The notes below the pieces were generated by a model. The model had not been told where the DNA came from, made no database searches, and saw only the letters and a list, made by a program, of their open reading frames with translations. A DNA stretch of 64,000 bases from Streptomyces sp. NBC_01255 (GTDB lineage: Bacteria > Actinomycetota > Actinomycetes > Streptomycetales > Streptomycetaceae), in the NCBI RefSeq assembly GCF_036226445.1, contig NZ_CP108475.1, forward strand, positions 62,001-126,000. The letters are read 5' to 3'. Positions 9,156 through 17,334 of the stretch are shown one piece after another. A program made the position numbers and the translations under genes. The number at the start of each line of letters is the position of its first letter. Position 1 is the stretch's first letter.

Positions 9156-9545
9156 CTACTCGGCAAGGAACCCGGGCTTGGGGGTCCTCTCCCGGCGGCC
9201 CGAGCGGACTTCGTCGAGCTGGCCGTAGAGCTTGGCGTGCGAGTTCTGGACCACGCGGGAGTGAGCCGCGCCGGCGACCGCGTCCTCGGCCAGGCGCTGG
9301 ATGTGGACGGCCGCGCCGCCCAGCGCGGTGGAGACCGCGAAGGTCAGCTCCACGAACCGCGGGTCCAGGTCGGCGGCCTCGATGGCCTGGGCGGTGTCCT
9401 CGGCCTTCTTCGCGTTGGCCTTCATCCGGCGCAGCAGGACCTCGAGCTCGACGGCCTTGTCGTCCAGTGCCTTCGACAGCTTGTCCAGCTTGGCCTGGGT
9501 GGCCTTGTAGCCGTTGTCGTCGCTCGTGATCTCGTCGGTGCTCAT
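9156..9545 (-). CDS. Small conjugal-transfer TraB-associated helical protein
   Basis: The 129-residue protein (MSTDEITSDDNGYKATQAKL...) is helical, with a coiled-coil-like stretch at about 15-60 and a conserved-looking end, YGQLDEVRSGRRERTPKPGF. Short proteins with this ending accompany transfer ATPases on Streptomyces elements and are often named conjugal transfer protein TraB, a naming that should not be confused with the large ATPase. The start is an ATG at 9545 with AGGAGA 11 nt upstream. Its layout resembles the C-terminal domain of the next protein, suggesting that both act together. Confidence 0.65.
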   Translation of the reverse strand: MSTDEITSDDNGYKATQAKLDKLSKALDDKAVELEVLLRRMKANAKKAEDTAQAIEAADLDPRFVELTFAVSTALGGAAVHIQRLAEDAVAGAAHSRVVQNSHAKLYGQLDEVRSGRRERTPKPGFLAE

Positions 9546-9580: not shown

Positions 9581-12346
9581 TCAGTCGTGGTGGGCGGCGG
9601 CCGAGGCGTGGGCCAGGCCCGCGTCCCGCTTGGCGTCCATGTCCTGGCCGTAGACGCGGGCGACGCCGGCGGCGGCCTGCACGGCGGCCTCGGCGGCGTC
9701 CGCGCACTCCTGGGCGCACCGCCCGGCCTGGGCCGTCATCGTGTTCAGCGCCTCGGACAGCTCGCTGATCTGCGAGATGATCTGCTTGTCGACGTTGTGG
9801 TCGTCGGCCAGGTCGTCGGCGATCTCCTGGAGCGCCTTGGCCGTGGCCAGCAGTCGGCCGATCATGTCCTCGGCCGTCTCCTTGTCGCCGAGAGCGGTCA
9901 GGGCGATGTTGGTCATCTCCACCAGGTACTGGTCGAGAGTGATGTCCGTCCGGTGCTTCGCGGCCAGCTGCGAGCCGGCCGAGGCCGGGGTGTTGCCCAT
10001 CGACGGGGCCTCCTTGGGGGTGGTGTCGGGTGGTACGGACTGCGCCGGGATCCCCGCCCCGGGGCCGCTTCCGGCCGGGGCGCTGTTGCCGTCCCAGACA
10101 GGCGTCGAAGGCGCGGGCGGGCGGGAGTGCCCCGGTACGAGGAACCCCAGGAGCTGGGTCTCGGTGAGGCCCTCCAGGGGGTCGGCCTTGCCGCCGGGCG
10201 CCTCGCCGGAGCCAGAGGGCTTGCCCTTCTCGGCCGGTTTGCTCTCCTCGGCGGGCTCGCTGGGGCTCTCCTTGGAGGCAGCCTCCGGGCCCGTTTCGGC
10301 GGCACCCTTCGGGGACGCTTCCTCGGGATTCCAACTCTCCGCGTCGATGCGGTCGCCGTCGCTGATGACCTCGGCGTCGACGACGTCATCGGCGGTCTTA
10401 GGGCGAAGTGGCGGGCGGGCACGCTCGCCTTCCGCCTCCATCCACAGCGGAGCCCGCGGCCCCTCCTCGACGGGGGGCTTGTTCTTGGTGAGCCGGTCCT
10501 TGACGCGCTCACCGAACGACCGCTTTCCCGGGGCCGGTTCCTCGCCTGCACCCGTCTTCTCGGAGCCGTCAGACGGCTTCTCCTCGACGATCTCGGCCTC
10601 TTCCGGCTCCGTGCCCGTAGACGCACTTGCCGGGGGCTCTGAGGGGCTTTCAGGGCTCTTGGCGGCGGCCGTGGACTCCTCGGGCCCGGCGGGCTTCCCG
10701 GTCTCACTGTCGTCGCTGCCGGACTCCTTCTCCTCCTCCTTGGCGACCTTGGCCGTGCCGGGATCGCCCGGCTCCTTCTTCTCGGCCTTGTCCTTCTCCG
10801 GCCCACCGGGCTCCGTCGTCTTGTCGCCGGATCCCTTGGCCGCCTTGGACTCGTCGGCTTCCTTGCTGCCGGACTCGTCCTTGCCGCCGGCCTTCGTGCC
10901 GTCCTCGGAGTCCGACCCCGGCTTCTCCGTCTTCCCGGTGTCGGTCTCGTCCTTGACCTTCTCGGACCCGGCCTTCTCCTTGTCCTTCTCCGTACCGGAC
11001 TTGCCCTCACCGGACTTGTCCTTGGCAACCCGGGCGGCCTCGGCGGCCTCGCGGCGCTTGTCGAACCGCCGCTGCGCCTCATCCCCGACCGCCGCGCTCA
11101 GCGTCGTACGCCCGGCCTCAGCCGCCTTCTTCTTCTCGCGCCGGGCCTTGCGCTCCTGGCGTCGGGCCGCGCGGGCGGCGCCGCGCTCGGCCCGGTCCTT
11201 CTTCTCCTGCTCCTGCCGGGCCTCGCGGTCCGCCCACTCCTTGTCCCCGGCCCGCTGCTTCTCGGCGCGTGCCTGGTCGCGGTCCTTCGTGCGGTCTTGC
11301 AGGCCGGCGGCGTGCTCGGCCGCCCGCCTCGCCTCGCGGGCCTTGCCCCGATCGGCATGCCGTTCGGCGCGGGCCGACTGCCGGGCCGCCATCCGCTCCT
11401 GACGCGGCGAAGCACCGCCGGAGCCCCTGGCGTCCCGGCCACCGCCGGTTCCGCCCCGGCCGCCTCCGGCCGGGGACTGCTCCTTGGCGCGCTGCCGTTC
11501 CTGACGGAGCTGGTCCTTGTGGCGGCGCTTGTCCTCGTTCGCCTTCGCAGCTGTGGCCTGCTGGTCCGCCTTGGCCCTGGCCTTCTGCTCGCGGCCCTTG
11601 TCGTCCGCCCGTACCGAGGACGGCGAGGCGGCGGAGGACCTGACGTCCTTGCGGCCGCCCTTGTCCGCGCCGGATCCCGCGCCACCCCGGCCGCCGCCCG
11701 ACCCGGAGGCGTTCGGGCTGCCTCCGGGGCGACCGCCGCCGAAACCACCGCGCGCGCCGCCGGTCCCGCCCCGGCCACCGCCGGAGGCGGAGGTGCCGGA
11801 GCCGGACTTCATTGCGGCCGCGTCGCCCTTTCCCTGGGCGGCTTTCTTGTCCGTCGCCGCCTGGATACCGGCCTGGCGCAGTTTGTTGTGCGCCTCCAGC
11901 AGAGCGATTTCGCGGTCGCTTTCCGATTTGAGGCGGGCGACTTTCGCCTCGATGACCGCCTCGCGGTAGGGGCCTTCGGCCTCGAGACCAGCATGGCCCC
12001 GGGCGATCCGGTATTCGAGCCAGTCGCCGACCCTTTCCATAAAGGTGCGGCTCGGCTCGTATTCGAATTCACCGTCCCCCTCTTCTCCGCTGTCGGATTC
12101 TGCCGGGGCCGGGGAATAGGCCGGGGCGGATTCGGCGCGCAGAACACTTTCTGGGGAAATGGGCTCTCTGATGGGCGGCAGTTCGATGGTCCGCTCCATC
12201 GGGGTTTCCGGGGGGATTTCACTGGGCGGGGGAATGAGGCGGTCGATATCGGCGAGCGGTACGGGCCGGTCGGTGACATCGCCTCCCGGGGGAAAGGGGA
12301 TGAGCTGGCCGGGGCCGTCGCCGGGACCGTCCGAGGTGCTGGACAC
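9581..12346 (-). CDS. Large low-complexity conjugation-block protein with C-terminal helical domain
   Basis: The 921-residue protein starts at a GTG at 12346 with AAGGAG upstream. Residues about 65-150 form an ordered domain (FMERVGDWLEYRIARGHAGL). Residues 150-770 are low complexity: Gly/Arg-rich stretches, then Lys/Glu/Ala coiled coil, then Glu/Ser/Pro-rich. Residues 783-921 are an ordered helical domain (DQYLVEMTNIALTAL; AHASAAAHHD at the end). A perfect AAGGAGG lies 8 nt before an internal ATG at 10000 (MGNTPAS..), so the last 139 residues may also be made separately. The function is unknown; a scaffold for the transfer pump is an inference. Confidence 0.7.
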   Translation of the reverse strand: MSSTSDGPGDGPGQLIPFPPGGDVTDRPVPLADIDRLIPPPSEIPPETPMERTIELPPIREPISPESVLRAESAPAYSPAPAESDSGEEGDGEFEYEPSRTFMERVGDWLEYRIARGHAGLEAEGPYREAVIEAKVARLKSESDREIALLEAHNKLRQAGIQAATDKKAAQGKGDAAAMKSGSGTSASGGGRGGTGGARGGFGGGRPGGSPNASGSGGGRGGAGSGADKGGRKDVRSSAASPSSVRADDKGREQKARAKADQQATAAKANEDKRRHKDQLRQERQRAKEQSPAGGGRGGTGGGRDARGSGGASPRQERMAARQSARAERHADRGKAREARRAAEHAAGLQDRTKDRDQARAEKQRAGDKEWADREARQEQEKKDRAERGAARAARRQERKARREKKKAAEAGRTTLSAAVGDEAQRRFDKRREAAEAARVAKDKSGEGKSGTEKDKEKAGSEKVKDETDTGKTEKPGSDSEDGTKAGGKDESGSKEADESKAAKGSGDKTTEPGGPEKDKAEKKEPGDPGTAKVAKEEEKESGSDDSETGKPAGPEESTAAAKSPESPSEPPASASTGTEPEEAEIVEEKPSDGSEKTGAGEEPAPGKRSFGERVKDRLTKNKPPVEEGPRAPLWMEAEGERARPPLRPKTADDVVDAEVISDGDRIDAESWNPEEASPKGAAETGPEAASKESPSEPAEESKPAEKGKPSGSGEAPGGKADPLEGLTETQLLGFLVPGHSRPPAPSTPVWDGNSAPAGSGPGAGIPAQSVPPDTTPKEAPSMGNTPASAGSQLAAKHRTDITLDQYLVEMTNIALTALGDKETAEDMIGRLLATAKALQEIADDLADDHNVDKQIISQISELSEALNTMTAQAGRCAQECADAAEAAVQAAAGVARVYGQDMDAKRDAGLAHASAAAHHD

Positions 12347-12446
12347 CGGGTGGGGCTCCTTCCTTGACAGGGTCGAGGCGCCTCGCGTATACGCGTGTGC
12401 GCGCTTGGGCGTGCGGGCGTGTGGGCGCCTGGGCGTTGGGAGCACG

Positions 12447-12500: not shown

Positions 12501-12743
12501 CTACTGCTGGGTGTGCTTCACGTAGAGGTCGTGCAGGTCGTGGGCCAGTCGCCGCAGTCCCTGCACGTCGCCTCGCCGCAGCATCTTCCTGCCGTGTGTC
12601 TGCAGCAGCATGATGAGGAAGTAGAAAGCGCCGAGGTCTTCCCCGTGTTTCTCCACGAAATCCGTCCGCTGCTTGAGCAGGTAGTTCCGGGAGTTCTGCG
12701 CTTTCACTTCGTGCCGGGTCAGCGGGCGGCTTGCGTTGCTCAC
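12501..12743 (-). CDS. Hypothetical protein, 80 aa
   Basis: A GTG at 12743 opens the frame (MSNASRPLTRHEVKAQNSRN...). Its GTG overlaps the TGA of the upstream gene (GTGA, 12743-12740), which indicates translational coupling. The protein is basic and helical with no cysteine motif or membrane segment, ending LYVKHTQQ. No family is recognised. It is followed by a strong hairpin. Confidence 0.75.
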   Translation of the reverse strand: MSNASRPLTRHEVKAQNSRNYLLKQRTDFVEKHGEDLGAFYFLIMLLQTHGRKMLRRGDVQGLRRLAHDLHDLYVKHTQQ

Positions 12744-13261
12744 GCTGATTCACGCCCTCGCAGGTCGTGAATGTTCGACACGGGGGAAGTGTAGCCGCTT
12801 ACCGGCCTGTTGTGAAGTCCGGGCGGGGTGGCGGGCATGGGCGGGATCTGCGGCGGGTTCTTCTTCCGCTGCTTTTCCAGCTCCTTTTCCTTTCGCTCTT
12901 TCACCGTGTTCGCGCAGTTCTCGTCGAAAGCGCGACGGCTGTAGGCGGCAGCCTCGAGGTCGGCGGCCAGGTTTTTGGCGTCCTTCAACACCTTCCGCAG
13001 GGCCTTTTCCACCGGCCGGGCGCGGTTCTTGGCGTGCCAGAAGCGGTCGCCTTTCAGGTGGGTACCGCGCAGGTGGACGCTGGTCTCGTCCGACAGCGTG
13101 GCCAGGTAGCGCTCGGTGTCGCGCACCACCCGCTGGATGTCGGCGAGGTAGTGGCCGGTGGCGTCCGCGTTGGCCGCCACGTCCTGCAGCGGGTTGGGGG
13201 TGTCCTGCCCGGGCTGCCGGCCCTGCGGGGCCGCTCCGGGACGGTGCTCGGGCTGGTTCAC
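12740..13261 (-). CDS. Hypothetical protein, 173 aa
   Basis: The GTG at 13261 has GGAGG 8 nt upstream; the longer frame to 13369 lacks support. The protein has a proline/glutamine-rich start, a helical centre (YLADIQRVVRDTERYLATLS; KALRKVLKDAKNLAADLEAA) with coiled-coil character and a Lys/Glu-rich then proline-rich tail. The stop overlaps the start of the 80-aa gene by 4 nt. The function is unknown; coupling suggests that the two products form a complex. Confidence 0.75.
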   Translation of the reverse strand: MNQPEHRPGAAPQGRQPGQDTPNPLQDVAANADATGHYLADIQRVVRDTERYLATLSDETSVHLRGTHLKGDRFWHAKNRARPVEKALRKVLKDAKNLAADLEAAAYSRRAFDENCANTVKERKEKELEKQRKKNPPQIPPMPATPPGLHNRPVSGYTSPVSNIHDLRGRESA

Positions 13262-13334
13262 GGGTTCGTCCTCCAGGAAGGTGGGTGAGCTGGTGTACTC
13301 GGTGGGCTGTGGACTGCTTCCGGCAGTCGCAGCG

Positions 13335-13367
13335 GAGGGCCAGCCCGCTTCGATCGGGCTGGCCCTC
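13335..13367. terminator. Intercistronic hairpin
   Basis: A perfect 13-bp stem (GAGGGCCAGCCCG at 13335-13347 with CGGGCTGGCCCTC at 13355-13367) lies 24 nt after the stop of the coiled-coil membrane protein gene. Confidence 0.65.
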
Positions 13368-13391
13368 ACTGGTGTGTGCCGGACGGGTGGG

Positions 13392-15668
13392 TCAGGTCAG
13401 GTACTTGTCCGCGTCCTCGGGACGCAGCAGGCCGGCCTCCTTCAGAAGCCGGACCGCGCGGGTCTGGTTGACCGAGAGGTCGGTACGGGCCCGGTAGAGG
13501 GTGACGTAGCCGTCCTCGTCTCGCGGGAGCGCCTGTACGAGCGGGAGGAGTTCGGCGTCGGTACGGGCGGGCGTACCGGGTCGGTCCGTACCGCCTGTAC
13601 GGCCCGCACCGTTCGTTCCGGTTGCGCGGGAGGAGGCGGTCGTCGTACCGGTACGGCCGCCCTGCACGGCGTCACGGCTCGACTGTGTACGGGCGCTGAC
13701 CGTGCTGGTGCGTTCCTGTACGGCCGCGTGAGCCGTACCGGTACGCCCCCGGGGCGCCGTACCTGTACGCGCCGCCCCGTCAGGGGTGGTGTGTACGCCG
13801 TATGTACGGTCGCTGTACGGGCTGGTCAGCGAACCTTCGCTCCCGTCATGGTGCGAGGGGTGAGAGAGGGCGTGTGCGGGGTCCGTACCGTCGTGTCCGG
13901 CGCCCGTACCGTCCGCTCGTCCGCCGTTGTTCGCGGCGTACAGGTCGCTGTGAGCGGGCTGTGTACGGACGGACGTTGCGCTGTCCGTACCGTCCGTCCG
14001 GCGGTGCGTACCTGTACGGGCGGGTGTTCCGTTTCCGCCGTCCGTACCGGTGCGGCCCTGCGTACCGGTGGCCGTATCGGACGGCGTGTCCGTACCGCCG
14101 TGTCCGTCCGTACCGTCGTCGTGCATGAGGGTGTGTACGCGCCAGATGACGGCCACGAAGATCAGCACGACGAAGGTGGTGAGCTGCCACGGGGCCGCCC
14201 CGCCCTCGGGGACGAGGTGCGCCTGCTCGGAGAGGTGGAAGACGACGTTGGCCGATGCCATCAGCAGCAGCGCCGGCGCGATGTCCCGCTTGGTGCGGAA
14301 CGCTGTGACGCAGTAGACGTCGATCGACACCGGCAGGAGCGGGGCAACGTACTCGTTGATGCCGACCATCCGGGCGAGCTCGTACTCGCCAGAGGCGGCG
14401 AGTCCGACGCCGGCGGCCAGCGCGACCCACGGCGCCGCCTTCCACAACTTGCCGCTGAGGCCCTGTCGCCAGCCGCGCCACCGGGAGGCGGCCTGCTTGG
14501 CCTCGCGGGCCTCGGTCAGCAGTCGGCGGGCGCGGGCCTCGTCGGCCTGCGCCCGCTCGGTGATGCCCTTGGCCTTGCGCTCGGCCTCGGCGGTGATGCG
14601 CTCGGCCTCCTTCTGTGCGGCCGCGCGCAGCTCCTGGGCGACGGTTGTGGCCTCGGTCCGCAGCCGCTCGCGCTGCTGGTCACACGCCGTCTTCAGTCCG
14701 GCGAGCTCCCCCGCCAGGGCCTGGCGCTTGGCCGCGGCCTCGGTGTCGAACTTCTCGCCGAGCTCCCGCAGCTCCTCGCGGAGCTCGGCGCGGGCCTTCT
14801 CCGCCTCGGTGTGGACGGCGGCGACGTGGGCGTCGGCCTCGCGCCGCCGCTCGGCGGCGGCCTCGACCGCGTCCGCGTACAGCGCCTCCGCCTCCGTGCG
14901 CCGGGCGTCGTACTGCTCGGCGGCGGCCTTGGCGAGCTGGGCGTGGCGCTCGCGGGCCTGGTCAACCTCCTTCTGCGCGGCGGCGAGCAGGTCGTCGGCC
15001 TCCTCTCGGGCGCGGGCGAGGATCTGCCCGGCCTCGGCGCGGCGGGCCTCGACCAGGGCGCCGATCTCGGTGAGGTCGGTCTCGGCCAGGCGCCGCAGCT
15101 CGGCGATCGCCGACGCGGTGGCTTGGTGGTCGGCGGCGGCCAGCTCGGTCAGCTCCGCGACCTGCGAACGCGCCCGGGCGAGGAGCTGGTCGGCGCGGTC
15201 GCGGGCCTCGGTCAGGAGCCGGTCGGCCTCGCCGCGCTGCTTCTGCGCCTCCTCGCGCGCCGTCTCGGTCTCGGTGGTGGCCGCCGCCCGCTGGGCGGTG
15301 GCCTCCTCCTGGGCGCCGGCGGTGACGGCCTCGGCGTGGGTGCGCGCGTCGGCCAGGAGGACGGTGGTCTGCTCGTGGGTGTCGGCGACGGTGCGCGCCG
15401 CCTGCTCCTCGGCCTTCGTCTGGAGGACGAGGGCCTGGTCGCGGGCGGTGTCGATGATGTCGGCGGCCCGGTCCCGGGCGTCCGCGACCCTGACCAGCGC
15501 CGCCCAGTCCGTCTCCAGCACCGCCGCCGTCTCCGAGGCCGTCTCCGTCTCGGGGGTCAGGGTCGGGGCCGGGATGGGCAGGGTGGAGGCGGCGGGTTGC
15601 GCGACCGTCGTGGCCGGCTTCTTGGTCCGGGCGGTGGCCCTCTTGGTCCGGGTTCGAGTGGCGGCCAC
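13392..15668 (-). CDS. Coiled-coil/membrane protein with DUF2637-like region and C-terminal winged-helix-like end
   Basis: The 758-residue protein has a Lys/Thr-rich start, a long Ala/Glu/Arg coiled coil at about 55-390, a membrane region at about 408-510 (VALAAGVGLAASGEYELA.. ; LLPVSIDVYCVTAF; ALLLMASANVVFHL) that resembles DUF2637, a Thr/Gly/Asp-rich linker at about 512-700, and a C-terminal segment (DEDGYVTLYRARTDLSVNQT) that could be a small winged helix. A GTG at 15668 preceded by AAGGAGG is preferred; an ATG at 15683 lacks a binding site. The linker DNA carries a dense GTAC array. DUF2637 proteins occur on Streptomyces plasmids and are tied to transfer or spread. The function here is inferred from context. 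Confidence 0.7.
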   Translation of the reverse strand: MAATRTRTKRATARTKKPATTVAQPAASTLPIPAPTLTPETETASETAAVLETDWAALVRVADARDRAADIIDTARDQALVLQTKAEEQAARTVADTHEQTTVLLADARTHAEAVTAGAQEEATAQRAAATTETETAREEAQKQRGEADRLLTEARDRADQLLARARSQVAELTELAAADHQATASAIAELRRLAETDLTEIGALVEARRAEAGQILARAREEADDLLAAAQKEVDQARERHAQLAKAAAEQYDARRTEAEALYADAVEAAAERRREADAHVAAVHTEAEKARAELREELRELGEKFDTEAAAKRQALAGELAGLKTACDQQRERLRTEATTVAQELRAAAQKEAERITAEAERKAKGITERAQADEARARRLLTEAREAKQAASRWRGWRQGLSGKLWKAAPWVALAAGVGLAASGEYELARMVGINEYVAPLLPVSIDVYCVTAFRTKRDIAPALLLMASANVVFHLSEQAHLVPEGGAAPWQLTTFVVLIFVAVIWRVHTLMHDDGTDGHGGTDTPSDTATGTQGRTGTDGGNGTPARTGTHRRTDGTDSATSVRTQPAHSDLYAANNGGRADGTGAGHDGTDPAHALSHPSHHDGSEGSLTSPYSDRTYGVHTTPDGAARTGTAPRGRTGTAHAAVQERTSTVSARTQSSRDAVQGGRTGTTTASSRATGTNGAGRTGGTDRPGTPARTDAELLPLVQALPRDEDGYVTLYRARTDLSVNQTRAVRLLKEAGLLRPEDADKYLT
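13483..14138. repeat. Dense array of GTAC-centred sites
   Basis: About 29 copies of the palindrome GTAC occur in 656 bp by eye count, most inside larger forms such as CCGTACCG, GGTACGG and TGTACGG. At the local base composition about two would be expected. In the coding frame they fall on Gly-Thr and Arg-Thr pairs that use GGT and CGT codons, unlike the usual GGC and CGC preference. The DNA may therefore be a protein-binding array in addition to encoding the linker of the 758-aa protein. Confidence 0.6.
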
Positions 15669-15734: not shown

Positions 15735-16103
15735 TCAGCCGCGCGGGGCGGGCAGCTCCGGCGGCATGTTGGCGGTGGCGTGCTGCCGGGTGAGCCAGGC
15801 GAGCGCGGCCGCGGTCATGTCGGTGGCCGCGCCGTCGGTGTGCAGCGGGGCGGTGTCGATGTCGCGCATCGCGTCGATCGGCGGCAGCAGCCGCATGTAG
15901 TCCGGCTTGACGAACTCGACGAGGCGGCCGGAGACCAGCGCGGTCAGGGTGTACGTGCCGGTCGCCCACGCCTTCGTGACCTTGCAGACGAAGGTGTGGC
16001 CGCTCTGCCCGGTCCAGTACAGCTCCGGGGCGCGGTACAGGACGAAGTCGCCGTCCTTGAAGACGGTGACTTCGTTGGTGGTCTTCTGGGTGCTGATGTC
16101 CAC
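15735..16103 (-). CDS. Hypothetical protein, 122 aa
   Basis: The GTG at 16103 has GAGGAG 5 nt upstream. The N-terminal half is beta-rich (VTVFKDGDFVLYRAPELYWT; TYTLTALVSGRLVEFV), like a small SH3-type barrel, and the C-terminal part is helical and proline-rich. No catalytic motif, membrane segment or cysteine pair is seen. I do not recognise the family. It lies between the coiled-coil membrane gene and the 109-aa gene on the same strand. Confidence 0.75.
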   Translation of the reverse strand: MDISTQKTTNEVTVFKDGDFVLYRAPELYWTGQSGHTFVCKVTKAWATGTYTLTALVSGRLVEFVKPDYMRLLPPIDAMRDIDTAPLHTDGAATDMTAAALAWLTRQHATANMPPELPAPRG

Positions 16104-16847: not shown

Positions 16848-17116
16848 GCCGCCTCCCGGCCGGTACGGGCCCGGTTGCGGGCGGCACGGCGCTTCATCGC
16901 CCGCCGCTCGTCCTCGCTGAGCCCGCCCCAGACGCCGGAGTCCTGACCGGACTCCAGCGCCCACTGCAGGCACGCCTCCATAACCGGGCAGCGGCGGCAG
17001 ACGGACTTGGCTTCCTCGATCTGCAACAGGGCGGGGCCCGTGTTGCCGACCGGGAAGAACAGGTCCGGGTCTTCCTCGCGGCAGACCGCGTTGTGGCGCC
17101 AGTCCATCCCGGTCAC
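16844..17116 (-). CDS. WhiB-family iron-sulphur regulator
   Basis: The 90-residue protein has the four cluster cysteines C12, C40, C43 and C49, the GVWGG turn at about 61-65 and a basic C-terminus (ERRAMKRRAARNRARTGR) for DNA contact. WhiB-like (Wbl) proteins bind a [4Fe-4S] cluster and the principal sigma factor, and control development or stress genes in actinobacteria. Plasmid-borne copies are common. The GTG at 17116 overlaps the upstream TGA (GTGA) and its own TGA overlaps the next start, so three genes are translationally coupled. Confidence 0.9.
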   Translation of the reverse strand: MTGMDWRHNAVCREEDPDLFFPVGNTGPALLQIEEAKSVCRRCPVMEACLQWALESGQDSGVWGGLSEDERRAMKRRAARNRARTGREAA

Positions 17117-17334
17117 CGCCTCTGTCCGACGAGGGCCATGTCGGCGAGCGTGCGACGGGCCCTGCGGCCGGCGTCGGCCGCGCGGCGGTCGCCGTCGACG
17201 ACGAGGTGGCGGACGAGCTGGTGGAACGCGGTGAGGTCGTCAGGCTCGAAGCCCTTCTTGTTGTCCGCGTCCTCGATGTCGTCGATGATCCCGGCGCTCG
17301 GCCGGGGCGCCGCACGTGTCATGCTGAGCTGCAT
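17113..17334 (-). CDS. Small hypothetical protein upstream of WhiB
   Basis: The ATG at 17334 (MQLSMTRAAPRPSAGIIDDI) has GGAGGG at about 5 nt. The 73-residue product is helical with an acidic first half and a basic second half (GDRRAADAGRRARRTLADMA). Its TGA overlaps the GTG of the WhiB gene, so expression is coupled. It is the first gene of the long minus-strand run, and the promoter must lie in 17335-17500. No family is recognised. Confidence 0.72.
   Translation of the reverse strand: MQLSMTRAAPRPSAGIIDDIEDADNKKGFEPDDLTAFHQLVRHLVVDGDRRAADAGRRARRTLADMALVGQRR

Follow-up and report, generated by a model that had tools for sequence, protein, structure and literature searches.

The stretch of DNA analysed here (the window) comprises 64,000 bp of Streptomyces sp. 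NBC_01255 with 70.7% G+C, and is part of a 138,003-bp contig in a genome of two contigs. It contains a dense array of the palindrome GTAC, and this array lies inside a single gene, the array gene (Table 1). The first-pass annotation had reported the array at positions 13483-14138, and counting confirms it: 29 GTAC start there, and no 656 bp elsewhere in the window are richer in this word. None of the 11 other four-base palindromes tested (12 of 16 with GTAC included) is densest at these positions. The annotation had set the array against about two expected copies. This baseline is too low and overstates the contrast, as GTAC is enriched throughout the window (257 copies versus 97 expected from dinucleotides, a 2.6-fold excess). 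A preference for the codon TAC is a plausible cause of the general excess. The synonymous-shuffle control suggested at the same time has been run and did not refute the array: the gene holds 34 GTAC, against a mean of 15.6 and a maximum of 23 in 300 shuffles of its own synonymous codons. This within-gene shuffle is conservative because the inflated GGT and CGT codons stay in the pool. When codons were instead drawn mainly from the remainder of the gene, the part encoded after the membrane region (the post-membrane part) had 30 GTAC versus 3.4. The segment encoding a disordered linker alone accounts for 24 of the gene's 34 GTAC, placing the sites within the gene.

In the AlphaFold2 model, the product of the array gene consists of a coiled coil, putative membrane helices, a disordered linker and a winged-helix-like C-terminal domain, in this order. 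The predicted membrane-helix region is conserved in all 16 of the 16 aligned sequences, and the C-terminal domain modelled alone has a mean pLDDT (predicted local distance difference test) of 88.8. The structural matches of this domain are weak; several of them are DNA-binding winged helices, including FtsK gamma, both free and KOPS-bound, DasR and LsrR. Searches of Pfam and NCBIfam with the array protein yielded nothing informative, and neither did PHROGs searches with the C-terminal 64 residues, the neighbouring pump or the downstream gene. PF10935 (DUF2637) did not reach its gathering score and did not match the array protein at E<=0.001 or E<=5; the related gene L105 (L numbers denote the loci compared) matched it at E 0.0015 only, under the cut-off. 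Profile searches found no convincing nucleoside triphosphatase (NTPase) match in the array protein. Its sequence matches in the Protein Data Bank (PDB), of the coiled-coil, designed-repeat and calmodulin type, were taken as chance.

Table 1. Features of the array gene and its neighbourhood in the window.
Feature	Position	Strand	Basis and remarks
Pump-like ATPase, 711 aa	6932..9067	-	many homologues named 'chromosome segregation protein ParM'
Short gene (matched part), possibly 'short TraB' of a tripartite set	9165..9518	-	54% identical to 138-aa SAP1 protein
Large low-complexity gene, start uncertain	9581..12445	-	position of gene annotated 'ATP/GTP-binding protein' on several related plasmids
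Downstream gene, start uncertain	12740..13369	-	58.7% identical to 158-aa SAP1 protein; weak NCBIfam TraA match
Array gene, 763 aa	13392..15683	-	open reading frame; matches on 58 plasmid records and 48 genome contigs; AlphaFold2 model
C-terminal winged-helix-like domain, helices within aa 709-762; proposed array reader	13398..13559	-	AlphaFold2, pLDDT about 90
GTAC array, 29 sites	13483..14138	.	word count; in the large-plasmid lineage mostly (A/G/T)GTACG or complement CGTAC(A/C/T)
Disordered linker, aa 522-703	13575..14120	-	AlphaFold2, pLDDT<50
Predicted membrane helices, aa 417-520	14124..14435	-	AlphaFold2, low to medium confidence; read as membrane helices in the model
Coiled coil, long helix aa 58-395	14499..15512	-	AlphaFold2 model
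Small gene directly upstream of array gene	15735..16103	-	66.7% identical to 121-aa SAP1 protein
WhiB-like gene upstream (matched part)	16907..17155	-	SAP1 comparison

The array recurs in the relatives of the gene. A tblastn search with the array protein led to 58 plasmid records, in 32 of which one place alone accounts for 80% or more of the query. Eighteen of the 58 records were fetched in the first round, and together with the window 19 of 19 genes lie above all 300 within-gene shuffles. Among them, the array gene of L001 is 89.7% identical over 89% of the query and has 26 GTAC in its best 656 bp. A collection of species genomes scanned with two peptide patterns gave 48 loci; 44 lie above all 200 shuffles, the exceptions being L053, whose frame ends early, and L063, L064 and L065. 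Further sampling added ten plasmid genes and 30 loci from matches in 57 of 394 Streptomycetaceae genomes. The genes sharing the C-terminal domain of the window's array protein form class A, with 69 members including the window after 10 near-duplicates were dropped; these genes are related, and counts over them are not independent. Their post-membrane parts contain 13-40 GTAC (median 27), and all 69 exceed every one of 300 codon-matched shuffles. The DUF2637-match controls (30 loci from 21 genomes, three with a post-membrane part too short to test) show no comparable array; the best among them are L070 with GCCCCC (z 6.0) and L067 with CGACA (z 4.2, or 5.9 in the word-free test described below). 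L067 comes from another family of the same order (genome G014), and its post-membrane part has CGACA 16 times versus 5.0, perhaps a further word. A second DUF2637-match gene (L088, G000:C2:50253-50714) lies on the window's own contig outside the window, with no comparable post-membrane array.

Codon choice in the 69 class-A genes depends on whether a codon completes the word. The first-pass annotation had remarked on the use of GGT and CGT codons; this is right, and it extends to Ser AGT and Val GTA. The Arg codon is CGT before ACN in 710 of 768 cases and in 26 of 263 otherwise, and the Gly codon is GGT in 398 of 608 such cases and in 135 of 1094 otherwise. Likewise, AGT encodes Ser in 91 of 116 such positions versus 34 of 728 others, and GTA encodes Val before C in 164 of 290 cases versus 8 of 134. 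GTAC occurs in all three codon phases (1349 xGT-AC, 268 GTA-C and 168 xxG-TAC). The individual sites turn over, although their number is maintained: of 96 alignment columns with a site, 6 are occupied in at least 90% of the genes and 32 in one gene only, and L017 has just 8 of the window's 30 sites in common, yet carries 19 in total. The same test applied to 46 genes from L001, L002 and the window gave z 6.3-7.0 for the three array genes and at most 3.8 for the others, apart from one gene at 13.0. This last gene, annotated as a tetratricopeptide repeat (TPR) protein (L002:2420-5089, on the Streptomyces avermitilis plasmid SAP1), has GTGCTGAA 11 times versus 0.1 expected, perhaps from repeats at the protein level. 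The codon-controlled tests and the relatives thus bear out the earlier suggestion of selection on the DNA itself: conserved selection acts on the array at the DNA level.

The bases flanking GTAC differ between two subtypes of the class-A domain. In the 12 genes with a CNRDRAVRLL domain, 201 of 204 sites are CGTACG. In the other 57 genes, most of which have VNQxRAVRLL-like helices, this holds for 140 of 1581 sites, and CGTACA (446), GGTACG (423) and CGTACC (237) are favoured, which can be read as a single asymmetric site (A/G/T)GTACG in either orientation. These 57 genes also use the rare Thr codon ACA after CGT in 261 of 616 cases, versus 26 of 938 elsewhere in the post-membrane part, and ACG after GGT in 401 of 452. 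Selection therefore reaches beyond GTAC to the neighbouring bases, and the bases it favours depend on the subtype of the domain. As each subtype is a lineage of its own, this counts as one contrast and not as many.

Outside class A, the word tends to change with the C-terminal domain. Homologues free of a GTAC array, by which the first-pass annotation proposed to judge its reading, do exist in L063 and L064; their C-terminal domain differs, however, so they are not the same protein. L063-L065 have the coiled coil and the membrane part in common with the window's protein and a different C-terminal domain, and their linkers carry TACCGGTA, ACCGGT or CGGTA instead. Other C-terminal domains mostly come with other words: ACCGGT/CGGTA, TGAGA(C), CGCTCA, CGG(A/T)(A/T)C and TGCAAC. 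The last four of these came from the ten plasmid genes and 30 loci sampled later, which also supplied additional genes of classes A and B. GTAC as a universal word is ruled out by L063, L064 and these other classes. The class labels and their words were picked after the word scans had been viewed, and this classification is descriptive. In the nine class-C genes, TGAGA/TCTCA occurs 17, 18, 10, 16, 17, 14 and 16 times versus about 1, the weakest being L103 (5) and L114 (4), and eight of the nine lie above all shuffles or nearly so.

A word-free test, in which no words were chosen, scanned 116 genes; it omits L055, which contains N, and seven genes whose post-membrane part is short. In 89 genes at least one 5-mer reached z>=5, and the 27 of 116 without one were left out of the correlation, for which 24 representatives were compared. 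Among these, the similarity of word profiles correlates with that of the C-terminal domains (r 0.84), and still does given the membrane part (partial correlation 0.80, reached in 0 of 2000 permutations). The word profile and the membrane part given C-terminal similarity show a correlation of 0.00 (997 of 2000 permutations).

Several observations weigh against so simple a correspondence. GTAC is embedded in the longer words of L105 and L065. Class E is split, with CGGTACCG in L105 and CGGAAC in L119 and L124, and the words of class G are weak and mixed. No word was seen in the word scans of L120 and L125; L064, L114, L119, L122, L125, L131 and L135 (classes B, C, E and G) fall below the cut of z>=5; and the Micromonospora relative L138 has no array. 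Among the genes with a RAQ-type C-terminal domain, L122, L131 and L134 have the weaker words GATGC, GGATA and GGGTA (z 4.6-5.5).

A gene from a 21.6-kb Streptomyces chartreusis plasmid (L137) separates the two parts of the protein. It was fetched after the classes were set, and both it and L138 were picked from the match listing. Its membrane part is nearest to that of L105 among 14 compared, with 99 of 130 aligned residues identical, whereas five class-C genes share 59-66 of 110-126. Its C-terminal domain is class-C-like, with z 12.1-22.4 against five class-C domains and 0.6 against L105. The linker carries the class-C word and not the CGGTACCG of L105: it holds 11 copies of TGAGA against 0.5 expected, and 5 of CTCTCA against 0.3. 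At the level of sequence comparison, the pair shows a natural domain exchange in which the word goes with the C-terminal domain, and the exchange may be on either side.

Our data suggest that the C-terminal domain is very probably the reader of the array in its own gene. We also consider it likely that the sites of the array are bound by this winged-helix-like domain and give the plasmid a membrane address beside the pump. In such a mechanism, the disordered linker peptide could drift, and for this reason its DNA would be free to hold a dense array of sites. The array protein, sitting in the membrane and probably oligomeric through its coiled coil, would bring together the roughly 30 sites of its own plasmid, which would thereby gain a specific membrane address adjoining the transfer pump. 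This address might serve conjugal transfer or spreading, or else maintenance; a role in transfer or spreading is put forward tentatively. Physical binding, membrane placement and oligomerisation are inferences, and so is our preference for transfer or spreading over partition and autoregulation as the purpose of the address.

The gene block around the array bears on these possibilities. The window and SAP1 have in common a WhiB-like gene, a small gene, the array gene, a gene of the 158-aa type, a large low-complexity gene, a gene of the 138-aa type and the pump. A similar gene set is described as a possible conjugation system in a passage of PMC9513070, and judging from gene order the window genes may belong to it. 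The label 'short TraB' in Table 1 likewise comes from size and gene order as compared with that passage, and the downstream gene product matches the NCBIfam model for plasmid transfer protein TraA weakly, with 15.2 bits against a cut-off of 80 (E 0.017). The earlier view of a site array inside a transfer-type block is supported, the transfer nature of the block being judged from gene order. Alternatively, the array could be centromere-like and the membrane protein could segregate or anchor the plasmid. According to PMC4170104, loss of spdA2 or sps in pIJ101 affected stability and not transfer, and the neighbouring pump family carries the database name ParM, both of which fit partition. On the other hand, the gene order shared with SAP1 resembles the possible conjugation system of PMC9513070 and the array protein has no convincing NTPase match; neither point is decisive, and we regard partition as unlikely.

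The array protein might also bind the array in its own gene and block transcription into the genes downstream. In the window, as at the 18 plasmid loci fetched first, the array gene is immediately followed by same-strand genes, mostly annotated as hypothetical, and the covariation of reader and array would fit such autoregulation as well. However, about 30 sites exceed what a roadblock should require and a membrane-anchored repressor would be unusual. These are arguments and not tests, and autoregulation seems improbable to us.

It is highly improbable that an unlinked or other protein reads the array. The covariation check covered just four neighbouring genes at six loci (four of class A, two of class B), which leaves room for such a protein; still, these neighbours do not track the word. 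The upstream gene u2 is 76% identical between L018 (class A) and L097 (class B), and the downstream genes d1 and d2 are 67% and 71% identical between L100 (class A) and L097, when the C-terminal domains of the two classes are at most 31% identical. The four genes were rejected as array readers for this lack of covariation, and an unlinked protein would need to change with every change of the C-terminal domain.

The pump itself, the reader favoured by the first-pass annotation, or the short TraB-like protein is very unlikely to fill this role. The idea draws on TraB of pSVH1, which reads repeated 8-bp motifs (TraB recognition sequences, TRS) through a C-terminal winged helix (a passage of PMC3583192), and on the presence of pump and array within one block. 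Yet a Pfam search at E<=5 drew no match to the window pump, none to a gamma domain either, and a PDB sequence search with it gave nothing beyond one match at E 1.9. Among the 120 listed of its 378 homologues, only P0169 is annotated with the DNA-reading FtsK gamma domain, confirmed at 2e-18; the listed pumps therefore mostly have no recognisable DNA reader, and a partner could supply one. L001 retains the gene and the array beside a distantly related pump (28% identity over 268 residues), and the word tracks the C-terminal domain of the array protein itself. Between L001 and the window, the array gene is near-identical and the pump and the downstream genes differ, which suggests a modular exchange of the block.

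A mere by-product of low-complexity peptide and codon bias can be dismissed: the linker abounds in Gly-Thr and Arg-Thr, dipeptides that can be encoded with GTAC, and the word is in excess window-wide, but the codons depend on context, the sites occupy all three phases, the rare codons GTA and ACA are used, and the z values set the array genes apart from every other gene tested except the TPR gene.

If this domain does read the array, the finding would account for how the large Streptomyces plasmids that carry this block tag their own DNA, with the array as candidate recognition site, and the address word of a plasmid could be predicted from sequence alone. It would also offer a clean case of a disordered protein sequence shaped by demands on its DNA, and several reader-word pairs from which the specificity of winged helices could be learned. 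More broadly, it is reasonably plausible that Streptomycetaceae possess a class of membrane-anchored plasmid proteins with an address of their own. In these, the linker DNA would be an array of 10-40 copies for an exchangeable C-terminal reader, reader and address would move as one segment, and single-domain swaps would create new plasmid-specific codes for transfer or maintenance.

Literature searches in an open-access collection, judged by titles, abstract openings and passages, turned up no description of the array or of a word exchanged with a C-terminal domain, and no described recognition site for this plasmid block. Comparable systems are described in passages of the papers cited here. 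Lambda O binds iterons within its own gene at ori-lambda (PMC5043065). The likeness lies in repeated sites inside the gene of the DNA-binding protein, a role that is proposed for the product here. Lambda O, however, is a replication initiator with four inverted repeats, whereas the array protein has a coiled coil, is probably held in the membrane, and has about 30 shorter sites whose word varies with the reader domain. SpdA2 of pIJ101 binds the palindrome sps within its own coding region in an electrophoretic mobility shift assay (PMC4170104). This is again a Streptomyces plasmid with a site in the coding region of its presumed or known reader. SpdA proteins have 117-163 residues and 1-3 copies of a conserved 12-bp palindrome, and the protein described here has 763 residues, 13-40 sites with a GTAC core, a word that varies from plasmid to plasmid, and predicted binding. 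TraB with clt (TRS) and FtsK gamma with KOPS resemble the array in their short repeated motifs in or near transfer genes; their winged helix picks the DNA to be moved (PMC3583192), a part that is proposed for the winged-helix-like domain here. There the ATPase itself bears the reader, whereas here the proposed reader belongs to a protein with no ATPase match whose own gene contains the sites. SpdB2 of pSVH1, an integral membrane Spd protein, binds DNA and contacts TraB (PMC4170104). The array protein can be set beside it by description, as both would combine membrane and DNA binding, though the binding of SpdB2 is reported to be non-specific. Compared with these systems, what is new is the large number of sites, a reader that is probably held in the membrane and has no ATPase match, and words that vary along with a domain open to exchange.
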